Assembly (NCBI RefSeq): GCF_014048475.1
Contig: NZ_NWUS01000001.1
Location: 62,001 to 126,000, forward strand
DNA: 64,000 bases
Origin: Bombella favorum
Lineage (GTDB): Bacteria > Pseudomonadota > Alphaproteobacteria > Acetobacterales > Acetobacteraceae
Direction: 5' to 3'
How positions within the stretch are numbered: position 1 is the first letter of the stretch; every line of letters begins with the position of its first letter. Made by a program: the position numbers and the translations under genes. Under the pieces are notes generated by a model. It saw nothing but the letters and a program-made list of their open reading frames with translations, did not search any database and had not been told where the DNA came from. Of this stretch, positions 50,904 through 64,000 are shown piece after piece.

Positions 50904-51224
50904 ATGGAGACAATTGCACGCGCTGATCTGATAGAGCTCCTTCAGGAGGAGCATGGCTTTTCCCGGCAGCAGGCTATCCTGTTTCTGGAGGAAATGTTCG
51001 AGCTGTTTGTCCAGACGCTCGAACAGGGTAAGTCGTTGAAAATCAGCGGCTTTGGAACGTTTGCCGTGCGGGATAAAGCACCTCGTCTAGGGCGGAATCC
51101 CCTTACGGGGGAGGAAGCCGTCATCTCGGCACGGCGTGTACCGTTTTTCCGTCCGTCCCGTTTGTTGCGGGAGAGTGTTAACGGTAGATCAGTAACGCAG
51201 GGTGCCCCTAATGACTTCCACTGA
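50904..51224 (+). CDS. ihfA: Integration host factor alpha subunit
   Basis: DNA-bending nucleoid protein; pairs with IHF beta at 40985. Seen: ARADLIELLQEEHGFSRQQA, SLKISGFGTFAVRDKAPRLG, the arm GRNPLTGEEAVI, and ARRVPFFRPSRLLRESVN. 106 residues from ATG 50904; a GTG at 50886 is an alternative start. The end overlaps the MerR-type gene by 14 bp, so the two are coupled, as usual in alphaproteobacteria. Confidence 0.93.
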   Translation: METIARADLIELLQEEHGFSRQQAILFLEEMFELFVQTLEQGKSLKISGFGTFAVRDKAPRLGRNPLTGEEAVISARRVPFFRPSRLLRESVNGRSVTQGAPNDFH

Positions 51225-53031
51225 TTCATCTCAGCGTCAGCATGATGCTCTGAGGACGGCAGCTAGTGTTGCCGAAGAGCTGGGCCTACCCCTGTATCGT
51301 TTGCGCTCGTGGGAAAGTCTCTATCCCGTTTTTAAGACGGAGCAGCGTGGAGACGGGCAGAGCTATTACGACGAGCGGGCCGTCATGATCGTGCGGAATA
51401 TTGCCCGGCTGCTTTATCAAGATGGTGCTCGAAGCCATGAAGTTGTCCCACAGTTAAAGCGTGAGGGGATTATCGGTGATGATACCGCATCCTCGTCTCA
51501 TAGGAGTGAGGAGACGGCCGATGAGGATGTGTCGCCGCAATCTGATCAGCTGAAGGAACTTCAACAGGAAAACAGGACGCTTAATGAGCGTCTTGAAGAA
51601 TTTGGTCGTATTGCTCTGTCTCTCAAGACATTGGAAGATGAGAACACTTCTTTGAAGGAGGCACTTGAGCAAGCTCATGATGCGGTGCCTCAAAAGGAAG
51701 ACGAAAAAGTTTATCTAGCGGAGCTTGAAGAGCAGAATCTTGTTTTGCAGGAAGCTGTTGAGCGCCTGACGGCAGAAAAGAAGGCGCATCAGCAGGCAGA
51801 GGCTGGCGAGAAAGAGCGACAATTACAGCTTGATGAGCTGCGTTCGGAATTAACCAAGTTGCAGGATGAGCGTGGGGAAGCACAAGCCCTGCGTGAAAAG
51901 TTGGAAGTTGTGCAGGCTAGTGCTCGACGTTTCGAATCTGAGAATGAAGCTCTGCGTGCAGCAGGGCAGAAACAGCGAGAGGCGGAGCGTGGGGAAGCAC
52001 AAGCCTTGCGTGAAAAGCTGGAAGCTGTGCAGGCCAGTGCTCGACGTCTCGAATCTGAGAATGAAGCTCTGCGTGTAGCGGGGCAGAAACAGCGTGAAGC
52101 AGAGGCAGCTCGTGGCCGAACGTTAGAAGAGCGCAATCACGAGTTGCAAAGAACGATTGAGCAGCTGAGGTCTCAGGCAAAAGAGCATCAGAGAGAGGCA
52201 GAGTCCCGCAAGGAGCGGCTGACTCAGCTTGAAGGGCTAAGGGGAAAGCTGGCGGACATGCAAGTCGAGCATGGGCGAGTTCAGGAGCTGACCAAAGAAC
52301 TGGAAGAGGTTCGGGCGGAAGCAGAACGCTGCCAGGCTCTGGAAGCTGAGAATGAAACGCTGCGTGCTACTGATATAAAACAGAGGGAAGCTGCACAGCT
52401 TAGATATCAGAAGTTGGAAGAAGAGACTATCAGCCTGAGGGAGACAGTCGAGCGTCTGACAACTGAAATGGAAAAGCAGCTGCAAAATGCAGAGGTCAAA
52501 CAGGGTGAGTTTGATGCGTTGCATGGTCGGTTTACGACGTTGCAGGCGGAGCAGGAACAGCTTCATTCGTTGCAGCAAGAAGAGGCCCTTCAGCATAAAA
52601 AGCGTGCCAGCCAGCTAGAGACCTTGAGTGGGGAACGGCAGGAGCTTGTACGGAAGTTGGAGCAGTCTGTTCTGATCATGCAGTCGCTTGAGGATGAGAA
52701 TGTGCGCCTCAAGCGTTCGTTGAAAGAAGGCGAAGAGAAGCAGGCTGCGCAAGCTGTTATTGTTGAGAAGGTGGAACGCCTCGAAGCGGAGAATAGTGAG
52801 CTGCGGCAGGAGCAGGCCGGTTTTGCCGAAGAACGTGAGCGGCATGCGGAATCTCTGGAACGCATCCGTGCTTTGGAAGGGGAGGGCGTTGTCCTCCAGC
52901 AAAGGCTGGCAGCGCAAGAGATGGATAGCCGCCTTCAGGCTAAGCGGAAAAGCGAGTTGGACGGTCTCTTGCATGATCTTCTCGGCGAACTAGCCGGAAT
53001 GAGAAAGACCTTACTTGCTGAAAAATGTTAA
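51211..53031 (+). CDS. MerR-type DNA-binding protein fused to a long coiled coil
   Basis: The N-terminal 80 residues form a MerR-like winged helix: RTAASVAEELGLPLYRLRSW, ESLYPVFKTEQRGDGQSYYD and VMIVRNIARLLYQDG, the protein normally encoded after ihfA. In relatives it is about 120-250 residues; here 606. Residues from about 110 to 600 are almost entirely heptad-like, rich in Glu, Gln, Leu, Lys and Arg. At about residues 221-298 a 39-residue unit occurs twice (RGEAQALREKLEVVQASARR and so on). The start ATG 51211 lies inside ihfA. Role unknown: the head suggests DNA binding, the rod suggests a structural or tethering role. Confidence 0.85.
   Translation: MTSTDSSQRQHDALRTAASVAEELGLPLYRLRSWESLYPVFKTEQRGDGQSYYDERAVMIVRNIARLLYQDGARSHEVVPQLKREGIIGDDTASSSHRSEETADEDVSPQSDQLKELQQENRTLNERLEEFGRIALSLKTLEDENTSLKEALEQAHDAVPQKEDEKVYLAELEEQNLVLQEAVERLTAEKKAHQQAEAGEKERQLQLDELRSELTKLQDERGEAQALREKLEVVQASARRFESENEALRAAGQKQREAERGEAQALREKLEAVQASARRLESENEALRVAGQKQREAEAARGRTLEERNHELQRTIEQLRSQAKEHQREAESRKERLTQLEGLRGKLADMQVEHGRVQELTKELEEVRAEAERCQALEAENETLRATDIKQREAAQLRYQKLEEETISLRETVERLTTEMEKQLQNAEVKQGEFDALHGRFTTLQAEQEQLHSLQQEEALQHKKRASQLETLSGERQELVRKLEQSVLIMQSLEDENVRLKRSLKEGEEKQAAQAVIVEKVERLEAENSELRQEQAGFAEERERHAESLERIRALEGEGVVLQQRLAAQEMDSRLQAKRKSELDGLLHDLLGELAGMRKTLLAEKC
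51871..52104 (+). repeat. 117-bp tandem duplication inside the coiled-coil gene
   Basis: Copy 1 at 51871-51987 and copy 2 at 51988-52104 differ at only a few positions (for example GTTGTGCAGGCT versus GCTGTGCAGGCC). The unit is 39 codons, so the frame is kept. High nucleotide identity indicates a recent duplication. Confidence 0.95.
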
Positions 53032-53095: not shown

Positions 53096-53172
53096 CGGGC
53101 AGTAGCGCAGTCTGGTAGCGCATCAGTCTGGGGGACTGGGGGTCGTGGGTTCGAATCCCGCCTGCCCGACCA
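53096..53172 (+). tRNA. tRNA-Pro (anticodon GGG)
   Basis: Seventy-seven nucleotides including CCA. Acceptor CGGGCAG pairs with CTGCCCG; the anticodon stem TCAGT/ACTGG encloses CTGGGGG with GGG at 53130-53132; the T arm has GGGTTCGAATCCC. It reads CCC and CCU. Confidence 0.96.
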
Positions 53173-57640: not shown

Positions 57641-57793
57641 TTTAGGTAGCTGAGCCCGTCCTTAGTATAGGGCGGGCGGCTGTTCCGGGGTGACTCTGCC
57701 GGCGCAGTCCGTTTTTCTGGTATTCATACAGGGTCTGATGAGGGTGCCCCGGCGCAGGCGGTGGCACCTTTCCTTGCATTTTGGAGGTTTCCC

Positions 57794-59905
57794 GTGACCG
57801 ACGACAGCGTTCAGGGCGCGAAGTCCGCTCTCTCAAAGATTCGCAACATCGGTATTACCGCTCACATTGACGCCGGTAAGACGACGACGACAGAGCGCAT
57901 GCTCTATTACACCGGTATGTCCCACCGTATCGGTGAAGTGCATGACGGGAACACCACGACCGACTACATGGAGCAGGAGCGTGAGCGTGGCATCACCATC
58001 ACCTCCGCTGCTGTGACCTGTGAGTGGGACGGCCACCGCATCAACATCATCGACACCCCTGGCCATATCGACTTCAACATTGAGGTGAACCGCTCCCTCC
58101 GTGTGCTCGATGGCGCTATCTTCGTGATCGAAGGTGTGGCCGGTGTGCAGCCGCAGTCCGAAACCAACTGGCGTCTGGCTGACCGCTATAACGTGCCCCG
58201 TATCATCTTCATCAACAAGCTGGACCGTACCGGTGCCGACTTCGACTACGCCTTCAGCACACTGAAGGAGAAGCTGGATATCGTGGCCATTCCGCTTCAG
58301 CTGCCGATTGGCGCCGAAGAGAACATGGTCGGTGTCGTGGACTTGGTGGAAATGCGTGCCATCGTCTGGGAAGGTGGTGAGCTGGGTGCTAAGTTCCACT
58401 ACGAAGAAATTCCGGCCGATATGAAGGAGCGTGCTGAAGAAGCACGTCAGAACCTGCTTGATACGGCTCTGAGCGTCGATACCGCCGCTATGGAAGAGTA
58501 TTTCGAGAAGGGCGAGGTAGACCTTGCTACTCTGAAGCGCTGCATCAAGAAGGGTACGATCTCTGGTGAGTTCCGCCCTGTCCTGTGTGGTACGGCCTTC
58601 AAGAACAAGGGTGTGCAGCCGCTGCTGGATGCCGTGATCGACTACCTCCCGGCTCCGGATGAGGTTGAGGGTATTCGTATTGCTCCGCCGGAAGATAAGG
58701 AAGTTGATGAGAGCTTCCTGCCGATCATCCCGGTTGACCCGGAAGGCAAGTTCGCCGGTCTCGCCTTTAAGATCATCTCCGATAAGTATGGTACACTGAC
58801 CTTCGTTCGTGTCTATCGTGGCGTGCTGAATACGGGTGACACCGTGCTGAACACCACAAAGGGCACCAAGGAGCGTGTTGGCCGCATGTTCCAGATGCAC
58901 GCTGACAAGCGTCAGGAAGTGAAGTCTGTCGGCGCTGGTGACATTGCTGCCTTCGTTGGTCTGAAAGACACCGTGACCGGTGACACACTGGCCGATGCAG
59001 CTGACCCGGTTGTTCTGGAGCGTATGCAGTTCCCGGTTCCGGTGATCGATATTTCTGTCGAGCCGAAGACCAAGGATGCCGTCGAGAAGATGACGCTGGC
59101 CCTCCAGAAGCTGACAGCTGAAGATCCGTCTCTGCACCTGCGGACAGATCAGGAAACAGGTCAGACCATTCTTTCCGGTATGGGTGAGCTGCATCTGGAC
59201 ATCATCGTGGACCGTCTGCGCCGTGAGTATGGCGTTGATGCGAACATCGGTGCTCCGCAGGTTGCCTACCGTGAGGCGATCACTCAGTCCCACACCGAGA
59301 CCTACACTCATAAGAAGCAGTCCGGTGGTTCTGGTCAGTTCGCTGAGGTGAAGATCACCTTCGAGCCGCTGCCGGAGAAGGGTGACGAAGAGATCATCTT
59401 CGAGAACAAGATCGTCGGTGGTGCTGTGCCGAAGGAATACATCCCGGCTGTCGAAAAGGGCGTGCGTATGCAGTCCACGACAGGTGTGCTGGCTGGCTTC
59501 GAAACGGTGGGCTTCAAGTTCACTCTGGAAGACGGTAAGTACCACGATGTTGACTCCTCGGCTCTGGCCTTCGAAATCGCCGCTAAGGCCTGCTTCCGTG
59601 AAGGTATGAAGAAGGCTGGTCCGGTCATTCTGGAGCCGATCATGGATGTGGAAATCACCACCCCGAACGATCACGTTGGTGACGTGGTGGGTGACCTGAA
59701 CCGCCGCCGTGGTATCATTCAGAACCAGGAGACATCTGGCTCCACCGTTCTGATCCGTTCTCAGGTGCCGCTGAAGGAAATGTTCGGTTACATTTCTCAT
59801 CTGCGTTCTGCAACGAAGGGTCGTGCATCCTTCACCATGCAGTTCCACCACTACGAGCCGGTGCCGCGCAACGTGCAGGATGAGATCATCGCAGAGCGTT
59901 CCTGA
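57794..59905 (+). CDS. fusA: Elongation factor G
   Basis: GTPase that drives ribosomal translocation and recycling. Seen: [20 protein letters not shown] (G1), [10 protein letters not shown] (G2), [14 protein letters not shown] (G3), [12 protein letters not shown] (G4), and the C-terminal domains with [15 protein letters not shown] and [12 protein letters not shown]. 703 residues. The start is GTG 57794, with GGAGG 6 bp upstream; an earlier GTG at 57761 is less likely. It is not in a str operon here: rpmB is upstream and tufA is absent. Codon use is strongly optimised, so it is highly expressed; whether a second EF-G exists elsewhere cannot be told. Confidence 0.97.
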
Positions 59906-61563: not shown

Positions 61564-64000
61564 TCAGCCGAAGCAGTGATTGGCGTGCATGATGGCGACA
61601 CCGACCTCACGGAGCAGATCGAACGCTTCTCGTAACGGCTGGAAGATTTCCCGATGCTCACGGGCAAAGCCCTGTGCCACACCAGCACCGCCGGGTTCGC
61701 CGAAATCGAGATCGGCAATGCTGGGGGCTGTGATGGGGAAGAGGTCATCCAGCAGGCGCAAGGCCCGTGGGACATCGAGGCAGAGGATAAGCGTTGTGAT
61801 GGCTTCCCGGGTTAGCGTGCCACGGGGGCCGAAATAGGGGATGTGTGTCCCTAGTGTCCAGATGCGGTCCATCAAGGCAAAGCGGATGACGTGTAGCAGC
61901 TTCTCGTCCACGTTCATGCGGGGGGCTTCCGGCCATGCGGAGCGTAGGGCGATGTCTTCCCGCTGGATGCGACGGAAGAGAGCCGGAACGCTCTTCCAGA
62001 ACTCCAGCTCTTCCAGGTCACGGGCAATATTGAGGAAATGTACCCGATCATCGGCATTGTCGCAGTCAGCTGCACGGTTCAGCCATGTGCCGGGGTCCAG
62101 CTGATGAATGGTGGCTCGTAGAACATCCAGGTCTGAATGTTTCAGAGCCTGGGACGCAAAATCCATGAGCTGGCGGAAACGGGGAGAGCTGTGGCGCAGT
62201 TGCTCGAACTGTTCCGTATGGCGGCGGGCGGCCCCGCCAAGGCCGTGCAGAACATTAGCCCACCAGCCTAGCTGCTGGAGAATGGCATTATTGGGAATGG
62301 CACGGATCTGGCTCGGATGAGTGATGCGTGTCACCCGTGCTGTGTCGGACTGACGTGCAGAAGGGCGGGAGCCGGTTTTGTCCACCAATGCAGGGCCGAA
62401 AGCACTAAGTAGGGCAGTATAGCCGGGGTCATCAACCAGATCCCCCATCTTCAGGGCGATGGTGGAGAAGAAATCCATAGCAAAATCGGGCTTGCTGAAG
62501 AGCGGATCATTCAGTGCCTCTGCGGCAATGGGTTCTCCCTGCGCAGCAACGAATTCAGCCAGTGTTGCAATGGTAGAGGCGGCAAGGTTCTCTGTTCCGA
62601 AGGAGAGATAGCCGTCCCCTCCCTGAAAAGCCGCTTCGACCCGGCTTGTAATCCCTGCTTTGCGCAGGGCCTGCCGTGTGTTAGCCGGGGAGAAATATTC
62701 CAGACGCTCTTTTAGGCTGAAAGGATGGGCACCACGGCCAATGCTTTCGCCATGAGTGTCGAACATGGTCAAGGCGATATCGTCTAGCCCATGTTCTTTC
62801 ATCAGTTCCAGCGTACGCAGGCGGAGGCGTTCGACCATGGGGCCAGCTGCTAGCTGCCCGACATAACGCCCGGAATCCGAATAACCGAACTGGAGGGAGA
62901 GACGCCCGTTAGCCCGGAGATAGGCCCGCCAGTGTGGAGAGCGGAAGGCTTCCTCCAAAATTTCCGCACCGTTTTCCAGAGCACTCTCTGTCTCGAAAAG
63001 CGGGGAAATTTCAATCTGGTCATCACGGATGCCAAAGAGGCGGGCCAGCCATAGTGTGGCAAGCAGCGTATAGCCACTTTCCGTCTCGGCAATCAGGAAG
63101 CGGATGGGAGACCCAGAATCAACGTGCTTGAGGATCTGCGCCATGGTCATCATCAGGCGTGATGCGGCACTAGGTTCTACCAGCAGAGCGCCGAAGTCGA
63201 TGGCCAGGGGCTTTAGATCATCCATGGCGGCATCAATGTGCGAGAGTAGAGCCCGACGATGGAAAGGCAGGGTCGGGTCATCCGTCAGGCCGAGCCTTGT
63301 ACGGGCTACGTTATAAATCTGCGCCGCATTGAGACGGGTGTGGATGTGAGACAGCCCTAGCCCATGATTGAGGAAGCCCGTACGGATGACATCCAGCTGA
63401 CGGGCTGTTGTATCATCCAGGCCGGCGGCTTCTGCCTCGAAGAGGGGAAGTAGTTCTTTAGCGTTGAGGAGAGCCGTTTCCCGCAGGTCAATCAGGGTGT
63501 GGGAAAAACGGGCAATATCTTCCGGCTTCATGGTCTGGCCGGGGATGGAACGGGGGCAGGCCTCCCGCTGTTGCTGTGTGGCCTGCAGAGCAGAGATAAC
63601 CCGTTTGCCGAGGGCGGAATCTTTCAGGCCAATCCGCTCCAACCCTTCGAGCAGGCGTTCCAGCTGGGCGATCTTGAGGCCCAGACGGATGCGGATTGTA
63701 TCCCACCAGCCGATGTCATTACGGCCATCCGTATCAAAACCCACCCAGCTGGCCAGTCGGACAGGGGCCGGGGTCAGCTCTTTAGAATCAGGCCAGCGGC
63801 GATGTGCAGCCTGAAGGATTTCTGCTGAGAGTTTGTCCAGCGCATCACGCCCACGAGTGATAGCGGCAAGGGCTAGAGCCTGCTCTTCATCCAGTGTTGG
63901 CGGTGTAGCGCGGCGATGTGTCGGCAGGGAAGGTACTGGGCAGGCTGGGTCTTCTGCCCGGCGGGCGAGAAGCTCATAGACATCATTGGCCAGGGCAAAG
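61564..64000 (-). CDS. PEP-carboxylase-like protein, 5' end outside the window
   Basis: The frame is open to the right edge; 811 residues are visible and the N-terminus is missing. The layout follows PEP carboxylase: SWVGFDTDGRNDIGWW where PEPC has GGDRDGNPNVT, ISPLFETESALENGAEILEE, RLSLQFGYSDSGRYVGQLAA (PEPC GYSDSxKDxG), and TMFDTHGESIGRGAHPF (PEPC FHGRGGxxGRGGGP). But the catalytic FHGRGG arginine is replaced, RVTEQGE is GYLSFGTEN, and the C-terminus is ANHCFG instead of RNTG. So it is clearly in the family but may not be a normal PEPC. Ends 23 bp from the terminator shared with clcF. Confidence 0.75.
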   Translation of the reverse strand, partial: FALANDVYELLARRAEDPACPVPSLPTHRRATPPTLDEEQALALAAITRGRDALDKLSAEILQAAHRRWPDSKELTPAPVRLASWVGFDTDGRNDIGWWDTIRIRLGLKIAQLERLLEGLERIGLKDSALGKRVISALQATQQQREACPRSIPGQTMKPEDIARFSHTLIDLRETALLNAKELLPLFEAEAAGLDDTTARQLDVIRTGFLNHGLGLSHIHTRLNAAQIYNVARTRLGLTDDPTLPFHRRALLSHIDAAMDDLKPLAIDFGALLVEPSAASRLMMTMAQILKHVDSGSPIRFLIAETESGYTLLATLWLARLFGIRDDQIEISPLFETESALENGAEILEEAFRSPHWRAYLRANGRLSLQFGYSDSGRYVGQLAAGPMVERLRLRTLELMKEHGLDDIALTMFDTHGESIGRGAHPFSLKERLEYFSPANTRQALRKAGITSRVEAAFQGGDGYLSFGTENLAASTIATLAEFVAAQGEPIAAEALNDPLFSKPDFAMDFFSTIALKMGDLVDDPGYTALLSAFGPALVDKTGSRPSARQSDTARVTRITHPSQIRAIPNNAILQQLGWWANVLHGLGGAARRHTEQFEQLRHSSPRFRQLMDFASQALKHSDLDVLRATIHQLDPGTWLNRAADCDNADDRVHFLNIARDLEELEFWKSVPALFRRIQREDIALRSAWPEAPRMNVDEKLLHVIRFALMDRIWTLGTHIPYFGPRGTLTREAITTLILCLDVPRALRLLDDLFPITAPSIADLDFGEPGGAGVAQGFAREHREIFQPLREAFDLLREVGVAIMHANHCFG

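Follow-up and report, generated by a model that had tools for sequence, protein, structure and literature searches.

A candidate ZapT orthologue with a long coiled-coil arm encoded after ihfA in Bombella

Described links between DNA and the division ring

Two links between the chromosomal terminus and the divisome, MatP-ZapB-ZapA and ZapT-ZauP-ZapA, are named in passages of two papers (PMC7188993, PMC7858052). According to these passages ZapT is a MerR-family protein which is encoded in an operon with ihfA in Caulobacter, favours terminus-proximal DNA, exhibits low sequence specificity in vitro and functions at the Z-ring alongside ZauP and ZapA (PMC7188993, PMC7858052). ZauP binds ZapA on the Z-ring, and zauP and zapA form an operon in Caulobacter. 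A ZapT homologue is recognised there as a MerR gene flanking ihfA in a genome with zapA and zauP (PMC7188993, PMC7858052). The C-terminal domain of ZapT binds ZauP, and leucines are conserved in it (PMC7858052). As described in these passages Caulobacter ZapT is short, with 21 kDa for the tagged protein and a C-terminal construct of G113-G141; a ZapT with a long rod does not occur in them, and Acetobacter and Gluconobacter are unnamed in the text of one of the papers.

With ZapT of Caulobacter crescentus (CCNA_01434) the Bombella protein described here shares a MerR head and the gene position directly after ihfA. Also shared are zapA and an adjacent ZauP-like gene, and the C-terminus is leucine-rich by eye. 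In contrast to the ZapT of these passages, the Bombella form has roughly 460 residues predicted to be helical, and its wing is altered. MatP-ZapB-ZapA of E. coli likewise leads from terminus DNA to the Z-ring via a coiled coil, but its DNA-binding protein is unrelated and its coiled coil comes from another protein. RacA of Bacillus subtilis resembles the Bombella protein in its MerR-type head, which gives the best fold match, and in its coiled coil, and it anchors the chromosome. However, RacA binds DivIVA, has a role in sporulation and is only 16% identical to the Bombella protein over the head. It is also shorter and is not known to be linked to ihfA. RocS of Streptococcus, Par of pSK1 and TubY are described with an N-terminal MerR-type winged helix, a coiled coil and a role in DNA segregation; their genome context differs from that in Bombella, and RocS and TubY carry a membrane-binding tail. 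KfrA of the plasmids RA3 and R751 combines a DNA-binding head with a long coiled-coil tail and forms filaments with DNA but, unlike the Bombella gene, is plasmid-borne.

The ihfA-linked gene and its ZapT-like surroundings

The stretch of 64,000 nucleotides analyzed here, called the window, belongs to a Bombella genome of 1.97 Mb. A zapT-like protein of 606 amino acids is encoded at window positions 51211-53031 (+). Its ATG overlaps the stop codon of the upstream gene of the operon, ihfA (50904-51224, +; start codon picked by eye), by 14 nt. The ihfA product matched Pfam Bac_DNA_binding with E 8.2e-26 and NCBIfam IHF-alpha with E 5.2e-31 and 106.8 bits, which is slightly below the 111-bit cut-off. 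The overlap amounted to 4 or 14 nt, and the order fabH-ihfA-MerR was found, in 11/11 Bombella genomes. Thus, the ihfA-flanking MerR gene in a possible operon, by which ZapT homologues are recognised, is present in the window and throughout these genomes. Of the 36 loci from relatives, 33 had a recognisable ihfA and 34 a recognisable fabH; the three loci without a recognised ihfA between fabH and the MerR gene were L076 (G039), L077 (G125) and L078 (G079), of which the genome G079 is rod-bearing and the other two carry the short form. The preliminary description had placed the gene directly after ihfA and had counted this coupling towards a tethering role. The position was borne out, but the operon is old and not peculiar to the rod form.

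Further features of the window were noted. A tRNA-Pro (ggg) lies shortly downstream of the zapT-like gene at 53096-53172 (+). A 672-aa open frame (57833-59851, -) runs antisense across an elongation-factor-G-type gene (57761-59905, +); it gave no Pfam match at E 0.001 and is most likely a codon-usage shadow. A 726-aa frame at 61564-63744 (-) matched PEP carboxylase partially (E 1.9e-15, residues 210-541) and is possibly a diverged enzyme.

The gene for ZapA was found in the genome of the window (C5:44785-45027) and in 35/35 relatives given, in G001 by a partial match only. That match (C5:7499-7615) covers profile positions 1-39 within a 1721-aa open frame; two genes may be fused here, or a frameshift or contig problem may be the cause. 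An 87-residue open reading frame without a Pfam match at the cut-off lies 5 nt upstream of zapA in the genome of the window. Homologues of this frame were located upstream of zapA in 13/13 rod-genome loci given (E 9e-50 to 5.5e-6), which stand for 13 of the 15 rod genomes, as G001 and G010 gave no locus. They also occurred upstream of zapA in the medium-rod genome G144 and in the short-form genomes G035, G255 and G032, and no homologue at E 10 was detected in 14 of 31 zapA loci. The putative ZapT-ZauP-ZapA module is complete by position. A replacement of ZauP by the rod was rejected because the ZauP-like frame is kept in all 13 rod-genome loci.

The leucine-rich C-terminus (residues 586-602; 52966-53016, +) is the proposed ZauP-binding tip. 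It was aligned by eye with 16 orthologues, and E593 was nearly invariant. A strict leucine pattern was present in 18/37 orthologues of the family and in 13/28 class-wide loci, the class-wide tails coming from 29 of the best-scoring 30 loci and hence not from a fair draw; the 606-aa protein does not fit this pattern. A profile of short C-termini, built from 9/15 short tails because the pattern misplaced the others, ranked the true end first in 6/15 rod or medium proteins and the true end of the 606-aa protein third of 504 windows. The likeness of this C-terminus to that of other ZapT proteins is one by eye and counts as weak evidence. Two class-wide loci of one genus (L119, L120) contain MerR orthologues that extend 252 and 264 residues past the LRxWE motif; their ends differ from the leucine-rich C-terminus.

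Synteny and head similarity tip the balance modestly towards the 606-aa protein being the Bombella orthologue of ZapT equipped with a coiled-coil arm. A ZapT-like function and a contact with ZauP would then follow the Caulobacter example, from which we infer them. The preliminary description was not aware of any comparable system, which is superseded by ZapT as reported for Caulobacter (PMC7188993, PMC7858052); its suggestion of chromosome tethering is still the best guess for function by analogy.

Tethering of another kind is conceivable but unlikely: a RacA- or RocS-like protein whose head binds scattered DNA sites while the rod anchors at the pole or membrane independently of the Z-ring, perhaps as a stand-in for PopZ. 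The head (residues 14-84; 51250-51462, +) matched Pfam MerR_1 (E 7.9e-7, residues 18-71) and was modelled with a pLDDT of 89.6, so that both the family profile and the fold are those of a MerR-type winged helix. Using Foldseek, its top match was the RacA-DNA complex 5i44 (E 2.1e-3, rmsd 1.4), as such a tether would lead one to expect; however, no structure reached E 0.001, and the heads of HiNmlR, SoxR and CarH scored nearly as high. When solved structures were searched by sequence, CarA was the sole match for the single head, and the head alignment retrieved 10 sequences up to E 1 with CarA and CarH on top. The profile PF10691 (tool label DUF2497), which we take to be PopZ, was not found in the genome of the window by a profile search, which may miss diverged forms, whereas Caulobacter gave a match. 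PF10691 matched in 229/299 Acetobacteraceae genomes and was without match in 70, and 12/12 long-rod and 2/2 medium-rod genomes fell outside the 229 (five of these fourteen absences were inferred from the presence list, and 50 of the 70 non-matching genomes are unlisted by name), while 229 of the other 285 matched. ParB and SMC are present. Against it, 56 of those 285 genomes do not match either, and the genomes with the rod are closely related to one another. Therefore, the lack of a PF10691 match offers no more than a lead. The retained ZauP-ZapA pair also argues against a function independent of the Z-ring.

The rod and its growth by internal duplication

AlphaFold2 (17 orthologues) predicted three helices that follow a winged-helix head and a linker modelled at low confidence. 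The linker comprises residues 85-110 (51463-51540, +), with mean pLDDT values of 39 for residues 91-100 and 42 for residues 101-110. The rod helices span residues 111-155 (51541-51675, +), 165-374 (51703-52332, +) and 398-604 (52402-53022, +). The model of the 606-aa protein reached a mean pLDDT of 78.8 and a pTM of 0.25; this pTM is low, and therefore the model says nothing on the placement of the head relative to the rod. About 460 residues are predicted to be helical with heptad periodicity. The hydrophobic spacing exhibited a spectral peak at 3.48 residues with a power of 3.37, compared to a maximum of 1.78 among 1000 shuffles. Eleven of 15 orthologues tested in this way exceeded all of their own shuffles; L063, L067, L071 and L072 did not. 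The heptad register score, with scores set by hand, was 58 versus at most 34 in 30 shuffles. NCBIfam profiles searched with the entire protein gave weak coiled-coil matches alone, far under cut-off. The MerR-type head on a long predicted coiled coil, as originally described, was confirmed.

Nine asparagines occupy position a of the heptads, and leucine prevails at position d. This combination is the rule for parallel dimeric coiled coils, and the a and d residues suggest that the rod is probably a parallel dimer. A helix rises 0.149 nm per residue. A rod of 460-490 residues would consequently reach roughly 70 nm at most, if straight.

The head was present in 316/385 genomes of the class and in 278/299 of the family Acetobacteraceae. 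Its closest relative is that of B. intestini (93%), and its near relatives comprise five Bombella records, one of Parasaccharibacter apium and one of Acetobacteraceae. Among the class-wide matches listed, frames were 125-391 aa long, the window's own excepted. The long form follows ihfA in 11/11 Bombella genomes with 349-748 aa, so rod length differs twofold within the genus. Fourteen of the orthologues from 36 relatives were at least 349 aa long (10 other Bombella, three of g101, one of g70), the two of g61 were of medium length (251 and 258 aa), and the 20 short ones had 127-304 aa, some starts being picked by hand, with linkers that by eye are mostly Pro-, Ala- and Glu-rich. Compared to these short orthologues, the 606-aa gene is indeed unusually long. 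In a FabH tree of 32 rows, whose root serves drawing only, the 15 long-rod genomes clustered with a support of 93/92, slightly below the program's mark for firm support. This grouping fits one origin of the rod.

The ratio dN/dS of the rod was 0.107 versus G003, 0.095 versus G009 and 0.125 versus G001; for some further pairs synonymous sites were saturated and no value was obtainable. Judged from these ratios of about 0.1, the rod is under purifying selection. Together with the long gene without internal stop in 11/11 Bombella genomes they rule out an untranslated rod. The idea that relatives carry only a short gene, or that the rod is not translated, thus did not hold.

Rod helix 2 contains a tandem duplication of a 39-residue unit (copy 1, 51871-51987, +; copy 2, 51988-52104, +). 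The copies are in frame with 39 codons apiece, and 107 of their 117 bases are identical; TRF reported a period of 117, 1.9 copies and 93% matches. The duplication itself is as first noted, but the very high identity claimed for it amounts to 91.5%. An assembly artefact was rejected as its source, because the copies differ at 10/117 bases and two other genomes hold 2 and 3 copies. The two copies have a dS of 0.29, and the gene has a dS of 0.29-0.33 to the B. intestini orthologue. The duplication in the window thus dates to roughly the time when B. intestini split off, and it is recent, as had been proposed, only in relative terms.

The number of 39-residue units was 1 in G001, 2 in G009, 2 in the window and 3 in B. 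intestini; in the other seven Bombella genomes no copy exceeded the threshold of 75 matching bases. Of the three B. intestini copies, two were at a dS of 0.156 from each other with the third at 0.329 from them, and the G009 copies were at 0.165, far less than separates the G009 gene from its relatives. These low values between copies indicate that copying or gene conversion recurred. A larger periodicity was also observed. The self-match at 94 or 97 residues exceeded the best of 20 block shuffles in 6/10 Bombella proteins tested, and the rod of G110 carries a 96-residue unit about 2.8 times. The repeat self-match was not above block shuffles in L066, L067 and G079, and in L070 it was barely above them at a spacing other than 94 or 97. 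The rod apparently grew via nested in-frame internal duplications, with old 94-97-residue units and a younger 39-residue unit above them, in agreement with the initial suggestion that recombination changes its length. Compared with the ZapT of the two papers above, the rod and this putative mode of growth are new.

The span from 349 to 748 aa inside one genus could also mean that an ordinary MerR transcription regulator has had its post-head helix lengthened by slippage or recombination to no functional effect, and repeat growth is common in coiled coils. We regard this as quite unlikely given the purifying selection along the rod and the long rod in 11/11 Bombella and four other genomes of the tree group. 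Moreover, the ihfA-linked MerR protein of Caulobacter acts, in the passages describing it, at the terminus and Z-ring.

The altered wing and the proposed arm

The wing of the head reads GQSYY in the 606-aa protein, and the basic wing GRRYY of the orthologue family is not kept. The residues concerned are Gln50-Ser51 (51358-51363, +). In a comparison from which G008 and G208 are left out, all 20 short orthologues had G-R-R, whereas the first arginine was replaced by Gln or Thr in 15/15 rod or medium-length heads; the second was retained in four of these 15 and both were gone in 11. Heads of the 15 rod or medium proteins carried a net charge between -4 and +4, those of the 20 short ones between 0 and +8. 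In BldC, two wing arginines are reported to dock to the minor groove. The loss of the wing arginines and the lower charge therefore make it possible that DNA binding is weak or gone, and DNA binding by the Bombella head is an assumption. A head that lacks most of the basic wing of its family is likewise new. The head is the least-changing part of the protein (dN/dS 0, 0.042 and 0.101 versus three relatives) and keeps the first-helix core RLRSWE, similar by eye to the DNA-contacting helix of BldC.

That the protein is a structural rod which has lost DNA binding and uses its head as a protein-binding domain, serving as a scaffold in the divisome or at another place, would suit the lost arginines and charge and the slow change of the head, but is very unlikely in view of the kept RLRSWE core, which by eye resembles that BldC helix, and of the low sequence specificity in vitro reported for Caulobacter ZapT as well.

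Under the ZapT reading, the head would hold DNA, the leucine-rich C-terminus would attach to ZauP-ZapA on the Z-ring, and the coiled coil between them would set the reach and help to cluster many heads, with a length that would still be changing through in-frame internal duplication. Dimer state, orientation, reach and the importance of rod length are what we infer for this arrangement. The twofold variation in length among species means that the rod is not a strict ruler; therefore, reach or clustering is a more plausible role than exact spacing. A more far-reaching proposal is speculative and stands at rather low confidence. In this proposal the rod-bearing ZapT would link terminus DNA to the division ring as an arm of adjustable length, with in-frame duplication tuning that length from one sister species to the next. 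Heads weakened by the loss of the basic wing would hold DNA via avidity from rod-driven clustering, and the arm would have assumed a larger share of chromosome positioning in a lineage that has no PopZ.

The long rod was gained in the same lineage in which most of the conserved basic wing disappeared from the MerR-type head. In the Acetobacteraceae genomes without a PF10691 match, the anchor of the origin becomes a question. Between species of bee bacteria a change in linker length can be observed. The ZapT-like proteins form a series of about 130 to 748 aa, with visible repeats in the rods. This natural series could be used to test the importance of reach for the link, and whether a ZapT-like link can be lengthened harmlessly.
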